64,000 nucleotides of DNA from Marinobacter bohaiensis (GTDB lineage: Bacteria; Pseudomonadota; Gammaproteobacteria; Pseudomonadales; Oleiphilaceae): the NCBI RefSeq assembly GCF_003258515.1, contig NZ_QGEH01000001.1, positions 248,001 to 312,000 on the forward strand. The letters are read 5' to 3'. Within the stretch, counting starts at the first letter, position 1, and every line of letters begins with the position of its first letter. The position numbers and the translations under genes are program-made. The notes below the pieces were generated by a model. The model saw only the letters and a program-made list of their open reading frames with translations. It ran no database searches and was not told the origin of the DNA. This document shows positions 7,432 through 64,000 of this stretch, in pieces.

Positions 7432-8030
7432 ACCATCCATTGCCAGTTGTTCTGTTGGCGGGGTTACTGCTGGCGGGCTGCCAGTCGGCCCACGTGGAGG
7501 AGGGCTACAGCCGTACCCAACTGCTGGATATCCGTGACCTGGACGGTGACGGCGTGGTCAACGTCCGGGACCTCTGCGGCGACACACCGACCACCAGCGA
7601 AGTGGGTGTGGACGGCTGTGCCGAGTGGACCCTGGAGTCGCGCCACCGGGATTTCGTGTTCCGTTTCGATTTCGACAGGCAGACTCTGCGCGAGGACCAG
7701 ATTCCGGTGCTGACCGAGGTGCTGCAGATGTTACGGGCGCATCCACAGGCCCGCATCGTGCTGGTGGGAGACACCAGCAGCGAAGGCACGGACGATTACA
7801 ACCACCGGTTGGGCCAGCGCCGTGCAAACACCATCGTCAATGCCCTGGTGGGGCGAGGCATGGACCGAAGCCGGGTGGTGGATATGGTCTACGACGACCC
7901 GGCGCTGACGAACATCATGCAGCAACGTCAGCGGCGTACCATCGTCCGGGTGTTCTACCCTCAGCTTGAATCGATTCCCAAATGGACCATCTACACCACC
8001 GAGAACCAGCGGCAGGAGGCTTCCCAATGA
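7428..8030 (+). CDS. OmpA-family lipoprotein
   Basis: 200 residues. Signal peptide with lipobox LLLAGC and lipidated Cys at residue 18, then a short Asp-rich segment resembling a thrombospondin type 3 calcium loop (DLDGDGVVNVRDLC), then an OmpA-like peptidoglycan-binding domain from about residue 75 (FRFDFDRQTLREDQIPVL, later VLVGDTSSEGTDDYNHRLGQ, which is the segment that contacts diaminopimelate). The Gly/Asp/His residues expected around the NxxLSxxRA-like helix are partly changed (NHRLGQRRANTIVNAL), still recognisable. It overlaps the TolC-like gene by 4 bases and the next small gene by 4 bases, so it is part of the adhesin operon. It may anchor the secretion duct or adhesin near the cell wall; that role is inference. 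Confidence 0.88.
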   Translation: MNHPLPVVLLAGLLLAGCQSAHVEEGYSRTQLLDIRDLDGDGVVNVRDLCGDTPTTSEVGVDGCAEWTLESRHRDFVFRFDFDRQTLREDQIPVLTEVLQMLRAHPQARIVLVGDTSSEGTDDYNHRLGQRRANTIVNALVGRGMDRSRVVDMVYDDPALTNIMQQRQRRTIVRVFYPQLESIPKWTIYTTENQRQEASQ

Positions 8031-60540: not shown

Positions 60541-61365
60541 ATGGTCCGACTGCTGTATCTATCTGCCCCATTTCTCGCCTTCTTTCTGGTTGCGCCTTTC
60601 GCGAGCGCGGCCTGTCCTGAGCGGCCCCAGTCGGATTACGAGCAGGCCTTTTGCCAGATCAGGGCCAAGGGCGGCGGTGCGGCTTTGCCGACGTTCGAGG
60701 ACTTCCGCCGCAATACGCCGCAGGTCCAGGCGCTGCTGCTCAAGCGGCCCGCGGCGCGGTGGGGGGTTGCCTTGCCGGAGCCGGCGTCGCAGCCCGGTCC
60801 TGCGAGCGATACGGGAGCGCCGTCCGTGCCTTCGCGAGAGCCCGCCGAACCAGCAGCGCCCGAACCGCCGCAGGTGACTGAAAACGCGTCGGGGCTGTCG
60901 GCCTGCGATCTGGAGATGGACACCGTTCGCTGCTCCGACGGTCTCTTCCGACTGGCGGTGAACCAGCCGAACGGCGCCCTGGCGCCGGGTGTTCTGGACG
61001 CCAACAATCGCCTGGGGCTGAGCCCGTTCCGCGGCGACGCCGGCGACGAGGCGGCGGTGCGCGCCTACCTGTCCGACGCCTACGACCGCTACATCGCCAA
61101 GATGCTGGAGATTGGCCTGGGCGGGGCGACCATGAGCTTCACCCGCTTCTACAACAGTTTCCACCGTCACCGGGCCGAAGGCGTCGACTTCGCCCAGCGC
61201 ATGGAAGACACCTTCCGCTATCTCAAACAGGACAAACGCAACCTGGCCGTGGACGCACGATTGGCGGAAGGCTTTCCCGCGTCGATGGAGAACTGCGCCC
61301 GGTCGGGTGAGGCGGTGATCGTGTGCGACAATGTGGCAACCAATTGGGTTTACGTCCGGGACTGA
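60541..61365 (+). CDS. Exported protein of unknown function
   Basis: 274 residues with a signal peptide (LLYLSAPFLAFFLVAPFASA, then ACPERP) and no lipobox. A Pro/Ala/Glu-rich linker at about 78-115 joins a small N-terminal part to a C-terminal domain of about 160 residues containing six or so Cys (SACDLEMDTVRCSDG, ENCARSGEAVIVCDN), likely disulfide-bonded in the periplasm. No family recognised. It ends 5 bases before the TOPRIM gene, so they are probably co-transcribed, though an exported protein beside a DNA-acting pair is odd. Its own promoter would lie just after the terminator. Confidence 0.7.
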   Translation: MVRLLYLSAPFLAFFLVAPFASAACPERPQSDYEQAFCQIRAKGGGAALPTFEDFRRNTPQVQALLLKRPAARWGVALPEPASQPGPASDTGAPSVPSREPAEPAAPEPPQVTENASGLSACDLEMDTVRCSDGLFRLAVNQPNGALAPGVLDANNRLGLSPFRGDAGDEAAVRAYLSDAYDRYIAKMLEIGLGGATMSFTRFYNSFHRHRAEGVDFAQRMEDTFRYLKQDKRNLAVDARLAEGFPASMENCARSGEAVIVCDNVATNWVYVRD

Positions 61366-61370
61366 ACGGC

Positions 61371-62168
61371 ATGAGTTCGGCATTGGAGAAATACCTGGCC
61401 GCCATTCGCGAGGGCCGACCGATCAACTTCGAGGCGTTCCGCAAACTGTTGCCCGCAAGCATCGCCGGTCGCTGGTCCCGCCACTTCGATGTGGAACGGG
61501 TCTCGCAGCAGCGTTGGCGAGTGCGCATGGTCGACACGTCGGTTGCCGCCGAGCTGGAGCAGTTGGCCCGGGTTCCCGGCACGCGGCGCGAAGCGGCGTT
61601 GCAGGGCGATTCCCACCGCCGGGAAACGGCAACGGCCTTCGTTCTGGTTTACCATGAGGCGCTGATCGATCCGCGGCCGGATGTGGTGTGCCTGAACGCC
61701 GGACGCTGTCACCTGGGCTTCGCGCCCAAGGCGACCGCGCTGGTGGTGGAGAACGAGGACAATTTCGCCCAGGCCCGCCAGATGCTGGCGTTCGCCGCAA
61801 GCTGCCTGGGCGAGCCCCTGGCGCTGGATTGCTGCGACGTGGTCCTGGGCGGTGGCAACCGCGTTCTGCGGGCGCCGGTGATGGATTGGCTGGCGGGCTA
61901 CGACCGCGTTCTCTGCGCTTTCGATTACGACCTGGGCGGTCTGAAGATGTTTCAGGCGCTGCGGGAACGGCTGGGCGATCGCGCCCACTTTCTGCAGCCG
62001 CCGGACTGGACGCCCTATCACGCCGGGTTCTGCAAGACGCCGGGCTCGCCGCAGCGGTTAATCGAGGCCATCGAGCGCGCCGGCGCACTGGGTTTCACCG
62101 ATCTGGCCGAGCGTTTCCGCGAGACCCGGCAATTCATGGAACAGGAGATCATTCTGGATGAGCACTGA
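61371..62168 (+). CDS. TOPRIM-domain protein, JetD-like
   Basis: 265 residues from the ATG at 61371. N-terminal 100 residues are helical with RW-rich basic segments (GRWSRHFDVERVSQQRWRVR). The C-terminal half has a TOPRIM-like arrangement: Glu127 in ALVVENEDNF, then D185 and D187 in CAFDYDLGGLKMFQAL. That is the E, DxD pattern of JetD-type (DUF2220-like) nucleases that partner condensin-like ATPases in Wadjet systems. The SMC-like gene begins inside its last codons (11-base overlap). Shorter than known JetD proteins (near 380-400), with the TOPRIM part at the C-terminus. Assignment by motif only. Confidence 0.72.
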   Translation: MSSALEKYLAAIREGRPINFEAFRKLLPASIAGRWSRHFDVERVSQQRWRVRMVDTSVAAELEQLARVPGTRREAALQGDSHRRETATAFVLVYHEALIDPRPDVVCLNAGRCHLGFAPKATALVVENEDNFAQARQMLAFAASCLGEPLALDCCDVVLGGGNRVLRAPVMDWLAGYDRVLCAFDYDLGGLKMFQALRERLGDRAHFLQPPDWTPYHAGFCKTPGSPQRLIEAIERAGALGFTDLAERFRETRQFMEQEIILDEH

Positions 62169-64000
62169 GGGAGCGCCCAACGCCGAGGCGCAGGCGTATT
62201 TCCGTTTCGGCATCCGCCGTCTGGTGCTGGTGGACTCTGCGGGCTTCTGTTACGTCGAGATTCCCCTGAACCAGCACGCCCTGCTGCTGGGCAGCGGCAA
62301 CCTGGGCAAGTCGAGCCTGCTGAACTCCCTGCGCCTGTTCCTGCTGCCGGAAAACAACTTCCGCAACAGCAAGAACAAGTTCGCCTTCCGCAACGCCAGC
62401 GCCGGCAGCTTCTACACCAACGAGGAAAGCTACCAGCACTACTTCCCCAGCCAGTCCAGCTTCCTGATCATGGAAGTGGAGAGCCCGTCCGGCACCCACT
62501 GCCAGGTGCTCTACCGGGACCAGAGCAGCCAGCTCAGCTACGGCCGGATCTTCGTGCCGGTCGCTTACGACCAGCTGCGCGGCCTGTTCTGGCGCTGCGA
62601 CGAGGACGACGCCGACGGCATTGGCCAGGCGGTGGAGGGGCTGACCGTGGCCCGGGTGACCGAGGCGCTGAAGACGCTGTCCCGGGAGACGACGGTCAGC
62701 AGCGACCCCACCAGGCTCAAGCACATCCTCTACAGCAGCGACCTGATGTCGCCGGACGCGGTGCGCTACTCGGTGCTGCCGCTGGCGGACCCGGACGAGC
62801 GCAAGATCCAGTCCCTGCGCACGCTGATCCTGCTGCTGTTCGAAATGAAGGCGGACGACAAGGCCATGGCCCACGCGGTGGCCAGCATCATCGAGGCGGA
62901 CAAGAAATTCGCCGACGACGCCTTCGAGCTGGACATCGACCAGTTCCTCGACCGCCACGACCAGCTCAAAAGCCGCCAGGAACATTTGACCCGCGTGGAA
63001 AGCGCGCGGCCCCAGTTCGATAAATTGCAGAGTGCGTTCGAGCGCTACCAGACCCTGACCCGCACCCAGCACGATTTCGCCGCCTTCCGCGACGGTCTGG
63101 CCGCGGCGTTGGCGGAGATCGGCCAGCAGCGTCAGCAGGCGGACCGCGAGCGGGACGAGCTGCAGGGCGCGCAGAAACAGTCCCAGAAGCAGCTCAACAG
63201 CCTGAAAACCGAGCAGAACCGGCTGGAAGGGGAGATCAAGGCGCAGACCTCCGTTCTCGACAAGGCGGAGAAGGTCCAGAAGGACGGCGAACTGCTGGTG
63301 TCCCGCTACGGCGACCTGACCGCCGATGAGATCCAGGCCACCCTGAACGAGGCGATGGAAGACAGCCAGGCCCAGCTCAATGCGCTCAACAGCGCCGCCC
63401 AGGCGGAACAGCGCAAGGCCCAGCTCACCCGTACCATCGACCAGCTGGACGCGGACCTCAAGGCCCTGGCCGAGCGCGAGCAGCGCGCCCAGTGGCAGCT
63501 GCAGAACCAACTCGACGACGACGTCATCGCGCCGCTGCGGGCGGTGAACCCGAAGCTGGTGTCGGCCAGCCCGGGGCAGGCGTTGGACGAGGATACCAAA
63601 GCCACCCTGGGCCGCATGGCCGAACTCTTCGCGCAGACCGACCGGGGATTCGACTGGTTCGACACCGCGTTCCCGGCCCGCGCGCCCCAGGCCGATGATT
63701 TCCCGGCCCAGCGCCACAAGCTCGAAGGCGAACTGAACGCCGCCCGCCGCCATCTGGCGGAACTGGACGACTCGGCCAGCGGCGGCCAGGACCGGCCCCA
63801 GCGCATCCAGCAGGCGGAGAAGGACATCGCCGCCACCCGCAAGGAACTGGACATTCTCAAGCGCCTGCCCAGCGCCGCCACCAACATCGAGGACGCCACC
63901 CAGGCCATCGACGAGGCCAACAGGGCCGTCGCCGCCCTGGAGGAGAAAGCCGCCATCGAACGCGAGCGGGTGGAAGCGGTCGGCACCAAGCTGGACAAGG
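62158..64000 (+). CDS. SMC/condensin-like ATPase, 3' truncated
   Basis: 614 residues visible, open to the window edge; start ATG at 62158 overlaps the TOPRIM gene. Head: FGIRRLVLVDSAGFCYVEIP, then Walker A GSGNLGKSS at 45-53, and a following domain up to about 260. From about 275 on it is a long, heptad-like Gln/Glu/Leu/Arg coil (QRQQADRERDELQGAQ, KAQLTRTIDQLDADLKALAE), broken near 460-520, then coil again. This is the layout of SMC, MukB and JetC proteins; the signature and Walker B should lie beyond the edge. The Walker A is divergent (GNLGKSS rather than GNGSGKS). Paired with a JetD-like gene, it suggests a DNA-loop-extruding defence or segregation module. Confidence 0.8.
   Translation, partial: MSTEGAPNAEAQAYFRFGIRRLVLVDSAGFCYVEIPLNQHALLLGSGNLGKSSLLNSLRLFLLPENNFRNSKNKFAFRNASAGSFYTNEESYQHYFPSQSSFLIMEVESPSGTHCQVLYRDQSSQLSYGRIFVPVAYDQLRGLFWRCDEDDADGIGQAVEGLTVARVTEALKTLSRETTVSSDPTRLKHILYSSDLMSPDAVRYSVLPLADPDERKIQSLRTLILLLFEMKADDKAMAHAVASIIEADKKFADDAFELDIDQFLDRHDQLKSRQEHLTRVESARPQFDKLQSAFERYQTLTRTQHDFAAFRDGLAAALAEIGQQRQQADRERDELQGAQKQSQKQLNSLKTEQNRLEGEIKAQTSVLDKAEKVQKDGELLVSRYGDLTADEIQATLNEAMEDSQAQLNALNSAAQAEQRKAQLTRTIDQLDADLKALAEREQRAQWQLQNQLDDDVIAPLRAVNPKLVSASPGQALDEDTKATLGRMAELFAQTDRGFDWFDTAFPARAPQADDFPAQRHKLEGELNAARRHLAELDDSASGGQDRPQRIQQAEKDIAATRKELDILKRLPSAATNIEDATQAIDEANRAVAALEEKAAIERERVEAVGTKLDK

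Follow-up and report, generated by a model that had tools for sequence, protein, structure and literature searches.

A gene for a TOPRIM protein overlaps the start of a gene for an SMC-like ATPase at the right-hand end of a 64,000-nt stretch of the 4.76-Mb Marinobacter bohaiensis genome (C1:248001-312000; hereafter, the window), where the ATPase gene runs off the edge. Does this pair open a Wadjet-like condensin operon whose other genes lie further right, or does it form a different, smaller SMC/TOPRIM system, the two options left by a first-pass annotation of the window? We extended the contig to the right (C1:309000-325000), which completed the SMC gene and added genes for proteins of 484 and 215 aa. 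These two proteins are the missing partners past position 64000, namely a kleisin candidate with a predicted MukF fold and an MksE family protein (PF21980), and the smaller system was thereby discarded. The locus is a complete operon of the MksBEFG/Wadjet group in the order mksG-mksB-mksF-mksE (G-B-F-E), in which each gene overlaps its neighbour head to tail. The closest named relatives, M. mangrovi and M. halodurans, share 88% and 87% SMC identity with it, respectively. The features are listed below in window coordinates, continued past 64000 as window equivalents.

60541-61365: conserved upstream gene, outside the system; 274 aa, likely signal peptide; in 6/6 genomes of the genus
61366..61370, + strand: 5-nt spacer from the conserved upstream gene to mksG; left cassette boundary
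61371..62168, + strand: mksG-like TOPRIM nuclease gene; 265 aa; JetD_C match, invariant residues, predicted fold
62143..62147, + strand: AGGAG, likely Shine-Dalgarno of mksB (putative role), within the mksG codons for the catalytic EQE
62158..64000, on to window-equivalent 65124, + strand: gene for an mksB-like SMC ATPase of 988 aa, truncated at the window edge
62290-62316, + strand: Walker A motif of mksB
window-equivalent 65114-66568 (L003 4115-5569), beyond the window: mksF-like kleisin gene; 484 aa; from predicted fold
window-equivalent 66555-67202 (L003 5556-6203), beyond the window: mksE gene; 215 aa; Pfam PF21980

The first-pass coordinates of the TOPRIM and SMC genes (61371-62168 and 62158 onward) were right, as was their overlap, which spans 11 nt at the ATG of mksB (62158). 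We found no Rfam family within the window and no promoter-like site ahead of mksG, and the fold at the 3' end was not special.

Components and likely mechanism

MksG matched Pfam JetD_C (E = 4.7e-5, over the cut-off). The best solved match of its predicted model (mean pLDDT 94.2) was Corynebacterium glutamicum MksG (8b7f; Z 14.0, 147 residues), with further matches to TopoVIA (Z 11.5), PA14 JetD (7til; Z 10.3) and Spo11 (Z 9.8). The predicted fold of this first protein is TOPRIM, of the MksG/TopoVIA kind, in keeping with the first-pass assignment; neither search pointed to a non-TOPRIM fold. The metal-binding residues E127, D185 and D187, which had been picked out earlier, are in place, and aligning 61 homologues left them invariant, together with N128 and the C-terminal E257, Q258 and E259 and, among others, G79, S81, H82 and G190. 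In its spacing, E257-Q-E259 corresponds to E349/E351, a pair in C. glutamicum MksG (PMC10123090). All fold alignments covered residues ~85 to 265, the only part that aligned to solved chains, and the N-terminal part had no Pfam match. Judged from the aligned ranges, the region preceding TOPRIM comprises ~84 residues (1-84), compared with 205-216 in solved JetD/MksG.

MksB (988 aa) carries the Walker A motif GSGNLGKSS at residues 45-53, where it had been annotated, and the full protein adds an ABC signature (GQSTST, 859) and a Walker B motif (VLDELASVD, 892); it also has the coiled coil. We considered an SMC pseudogene or a missing Walker B and rejected both, as all three ATPase motifs are intact. 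MksE matched PF21980 clearly (E = 4.9e-24; 86 bits vs. a cut-off of 27). The 484-aa protein had no convincing family match. For the model of an orthologue (92.6% identical), the eight best VIA-align rows were all MukF (Z 14.5-15.2), and Foldseek also ranked MukF first, but at E = 1.7e-3 and with a pLDDT of 77.5. We regard the 484-aa protein as a MukF-type kleisin, a model-based assignment of moderate strength.

Neither single-protein searches nor profiles A1-A3 gave a sequence match to solved JetC, MukB, JetA or JetD, so the transfer of mechanism rests on fold and motifs. In JetABCD and MksBEFG, the motor extrudes DNA and a TOPRIM dimer cuts fully extruded circles (PMC10586767, PMC10123090). 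By homology, the SMC ATPase, kleisin and MksE would form a dimeric motor able to load on DNA and extrude it as loops. A small circle would be extruded completely, and the stalled motor would present bent DNA, which a dimer of the TOPRIM nuclease would cut, removing plasmids (PMC10586767, PMC10123090).

Comparison with known systems

The four subunits, the TOPRIM half, the metal site and the C-terminal E-x-E liken the operon to C. glutamicum MksBEFG (Wadjet type I; PMC10123090, PMC7083940). However, profile searches of the solved chains of that system detected no sequence similarity, MksG is shorter (265 vs. ~370 aa), as is the SMC protein (988 vs. 1111 aa), and the gene order is mksG-B-F-E, whereas the reported mks order, stated as conserved, is mksFEBG (PMC10123090). 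With JetABCD (Wadjet I-III; e.g., P. aeruginosa PA14 and E. coli GF4-3), the operon shares the component set, the TOPRIM fold and the presumed mechanism. It differs in that the nuclease gene comes first and has been lost in 15/65 species, and the N-terminal part, which bears the controlling CAP domain in JetD, is far shorter in MksG. PADLOC JetA-D models also missed these proteins, giving no useful E-values (G, 0.06 with JetD1; F, none; B, 2e-4; E, 1.3e-4). The match to MksB lay in the coiled coil with several Wadjet types tied, and the four subunits did not together match any one of types I, II or III. Because PADLOC, a standard library of defence systems, misses the G-B-F-E family, such systems are undercounted.

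P. aeruginosa MksBEF, which has no nuclease (PMC7485682), is similar in its MksE family and in that the core is kept without MksG in some of our species; in contrast, mksG is present in most species here and intact in the window operon, and the order is B-F-E, not F-E-B. The likeness to MukBEF lies in the MukF-like kleisin fold. MksBEF was reportedly first described by Petrushenko in 2011.

Distribution and genomic sites

We gathered 80 named loci with an SMC alignment. The G-B-F-E order was conserved in essentially all complete ones, at SMC identities down to 25%, and six additional loci that we read also had it; the count is ~75 loci across Gammaproteobacteria. The difference from jetABCD noted in the first-pass annotation, with the TOPRIM gene first, is conserved. 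The genera included Marinobacter, Halomonas, Billgrantia, Thioalkalivibrio, Colwellia, Algicola, Methylophaga, Methylobacter, Cycloclasticus, Marinobacterium, Parendozoicomonas and Pseudomonas. In a phylum-wide sample, 7 of 398 genomes carried the G-B-F-E condensin, all of them Gammaproteobacteria, and in a survey of the family, 65 of 151 genomes had the condensin. Plasmid-borne copies were considered and rejected: mksG had no match there, and SMC had only two, both weak (23.6% and 31.9% identity).

The operon behaves as a discrete cassette: in two genomes of the same genus, fdsD-fdhD comes immediately after the conserved left gene and the operon is absent, and ~5.8 kb occupies exactly that junction in M. 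bohaiensis. Other sites in relatives lie between a chemoreceptor gene and other conserved genes (site A) and near genes for an FMN oxidoreductase and a short-chain dehydrogenase (site B). The first-pass annotation had proposed a survey of gene order and of defence-island neighbours; the order is conserved as above, but the flanking genes in the M. bohaiensis genome are metabolic with no defence island, so the context there gives a defence role no support. Unlike this neighbourhood, the site-B flanks of four loci (L069, L070, L071 and L085) are defence-like, comprising ResIII/DUF3427 helicases, a methyltransferase-HNH protein and an NOV_C protein. In the Methylophaga-type loci (L097, L108, L110 and L112), recC and recB-recD flank the operon, and a gene for a ParE toxin immediately precedes mksG; the RecBCD enzyme, whose locus hosts it, would degrade linearised DNA.

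Repeated loss of mksG

Across the 151 family genomes, mksG was adjacent to the condensin in 50 of 65 condensin species and absent at the operon in the other 15. In 11 relatives, no mksG was found anywhere in the genome, several of the surveyed genomes being drafts. At nine named Marinobacter loci, intact mksB-F-E genes had no mksG reading frame ahead of them, and B, F and E were full-length at the additional loci lacking mksG that we read. Separately, in L086 (M. similis), L095, L117 and L078, mksB or mksF is broken up among several reading frames, through either pseudogene formation or sequencing frameshifts.

On a tree of BFE (mksB, mksF and mksE), built with a quick method, the loss of mksG required 11 changes among 49 rows. 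The surviving stub comprises the last 23-140 nt of mksG, and its presence sets the direction of change as loss. The 3' breakpoints fall at ~10 places in the 783-nt gene (nt 644/647, 691, 695 twice, 720, 721, 732, 733, 735, 738, 741, 742 twice and 761). By these comparisons, mksG was deleted in place about ten separate times. In one case, both sides of the locus align with those of a sister genome that kept mksG (L082 vs. L058) around a clean ~690-bp gap. Replacement of mksG by another effector was also considered and rejected for L082 and L104, where the flanks align straight through to those of the sister.

Nearly all operons compared by eye, including nine without mksG, keep AGGAG ten bases ahead of the mksB ATG. 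The simplest reading is that the stub is retained because translation of mksB would need this piece. A 2025 survey has reported MksG loss in some members of the Wadjet group at a deep phylogenetic level (PMC7617805). The losses described here differ in occurring within one genus, many times, and with stubs and breakpoints, and the operon list of that survey may include these operons. Outside Marinobacter, a Parendozoicomonas haliclonae locus (L122:5491-6339 and 7652-7945) has an intact mksG followed by the remains of a second mksG before mksB, and nuclease turnover is thus found there too.

Selection on the condensin core

We estimated pairwise dN/dS by the Nei-Gojobori method. The pair L061-L205 has a common breakpoint and no mksG in either genome; dN/dS was 0.051, 0.051 and 0.045 for B, F and E, respectively, from ~494 synonymous and 121 nonsynonymous differences across the three genes. 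Values were similarly low in L082-L104 (0.05, 0.04 and 0.05), and somewhat higher in L051-L067 (0.125, 0.114 and 0.094), where synonymous sites are near saturation. In L058-L094, a pair that kept mksG, they were 0.044, 0.062 and 0.098. Pairs keeping mksG ranged from 0.03 to 0.17 for B, F and E and from 0.12 to 0.28 for mksG; by this measure, mksG evolves faster than BFE. Since dN/dS is low after mksG loss, the condensin is not relaxed; its three genes remain under strong purifying selection. We also examined an IFDR-like motif of MksE (F[DE]xILP) as a possible MksG contact that might decay after mksG loss; it was kept in Marinobacter with and without mksG and was absent from distant members.

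These values bear on whether operons without mksG are recent decay intermediates, with BFE itself being lost and without independent function. Some stubs are indeed young, such as those of L082/L104. However, the common breakpoint of L061-L205 is older than their split, yet dN/dS is ~0.05, which largely refutes decay for this pair; one of its two genomes (G423) is a single 3.7-Mb contig with no other mksG, and all motifs were intact in the operons without mksG that we checked. We therefore consider decay very improbable. Because the core is still under selection without mksG, BFE probably has a nuclease-independent role as well, which may be chromosome organisation or the silencing or compacting of circles; this points to a useful activity of the motor even where the cutter is gone.

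The same constraint could mean that BFE is mainly a chromosome condensin that works alongside Smc-ScpAB, in the manner of P. aeruginosa MksBEF, and that mksG encodes an accessory nuclease, topological or for repair, rather than mainly an anti-plasmid effector. Besides the equal constraint with and without mksG, this fits the few fixed chromosomal sites of the operon, the position between recC and recB-recD in Methylophaga-type loci and the separate canonical Smc (1176 aa) encoded in the same genome, as in P. aeruginosa. We nevertheless find it unlikely, as presence is patchy (65/151 in the family and 7/398 in the phylum), unlike that of a core chromosome factor, two congeners have an exact empty site, and the catalytic residues of mksG are invariant wherever the gene is kept.

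We favor instead, as likely, a system that extrudes loops and cuts plasmids, in which the nuclease can be detached and the condensin has a selected role of its own; the anti-plasmid activity is one that we infer. In such a system, mksG would be a detachable effector, repeatedly deleted and in some species retained solely away from the operon. What is new is the evolutionary separability of nuclease and motor; the motor would keep a selected role when the nuclease is gone, as it does in P. aeruginosa MksBEF and MukBEF. In a broader form, to which we give an even chance, the G-B-F-E condensin would be a natural halfway stage, with plasmid-cutting Wadjet/MksBEFG on one side and nuclease-free chromosomal MksBEF/MukBEF on the other: a core with its own selected function and a nuclease that is swappable, repeatedly lost and suppliable in trans from an orphan gene, with ~ten independent conversions comparable within one genus. 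For the relation of defence to housekeeping condensins, the nuclease-loss step is visible here many times and over short distances in a single genus, and the breakpoints, together with sister species that keep mksG, make the question of a motor without its cutter directly testable.

Orphan and exchanged mksG genes

Four standalone, full-length or near-full-length mksG genes were found among the 151 genomes, all in genomes whose condensin operon lacks mksG (4/15 vs. 0/136; Fisher's exact test, ~7e-5, uncorrected for kinship), and they trace to three events that are independent. M. excellens HL-55 is among the carriers of an orphan. By lineage, all four are site-B mksG genes, whereas the BFE genes of L082, L104 and L067 are at site A. 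Three of the four are intact with all catalytic residues; the fourth (L153) is frameshifted before EQE, which is lost in frame. In L151, fragments of mksB and mksF adjoin the orphan. These genomes are likely to have once carried two operons, of which one has left its nuclease and the other its motor.

The separate-locus mksG may act in trans on the remaining motor. Only this part of our interpretation is rivaled by the view that the orphans and the BFE operons without mksG are unrelated leftovers of two decayed operons with no cooperation, which we judge slightly less probable than even. The site-B origin of the orphans, which is not the lineage expected for site-A operons, the origin of the L151 orphan by BFE deletion in a second operon, and the frameshift in L153 all suit mere leftovers. 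Against them stand the intact catalytic residues of the other three orphans and the absence of any orphan from the 136 genomes without a G-less BFE.

Exchange of mksG within operons was indicated by synonymous distances, which were 0.05 for mksG vs. 0.52 for mksB in L056-L057 and 0.55 vs. 0.19 in L071-L072. In L058/L094 too, there is a strong difference between the mksG distance and the distances for B, F and E. This suggests that mksG alone was exchanged by recombination in these three pairs.

Marinobacter also has a second, diverged operon in the order F-E-B-G (L154:3396-8913 and L155:8404-13921), which coexists with G-B-F-E. Its TOPRIM protein (303 aa) matches Pfam DUF7281, and the operon follows a small gene pair that, by eye, resembles a PIN-type toxin-antitoxin.
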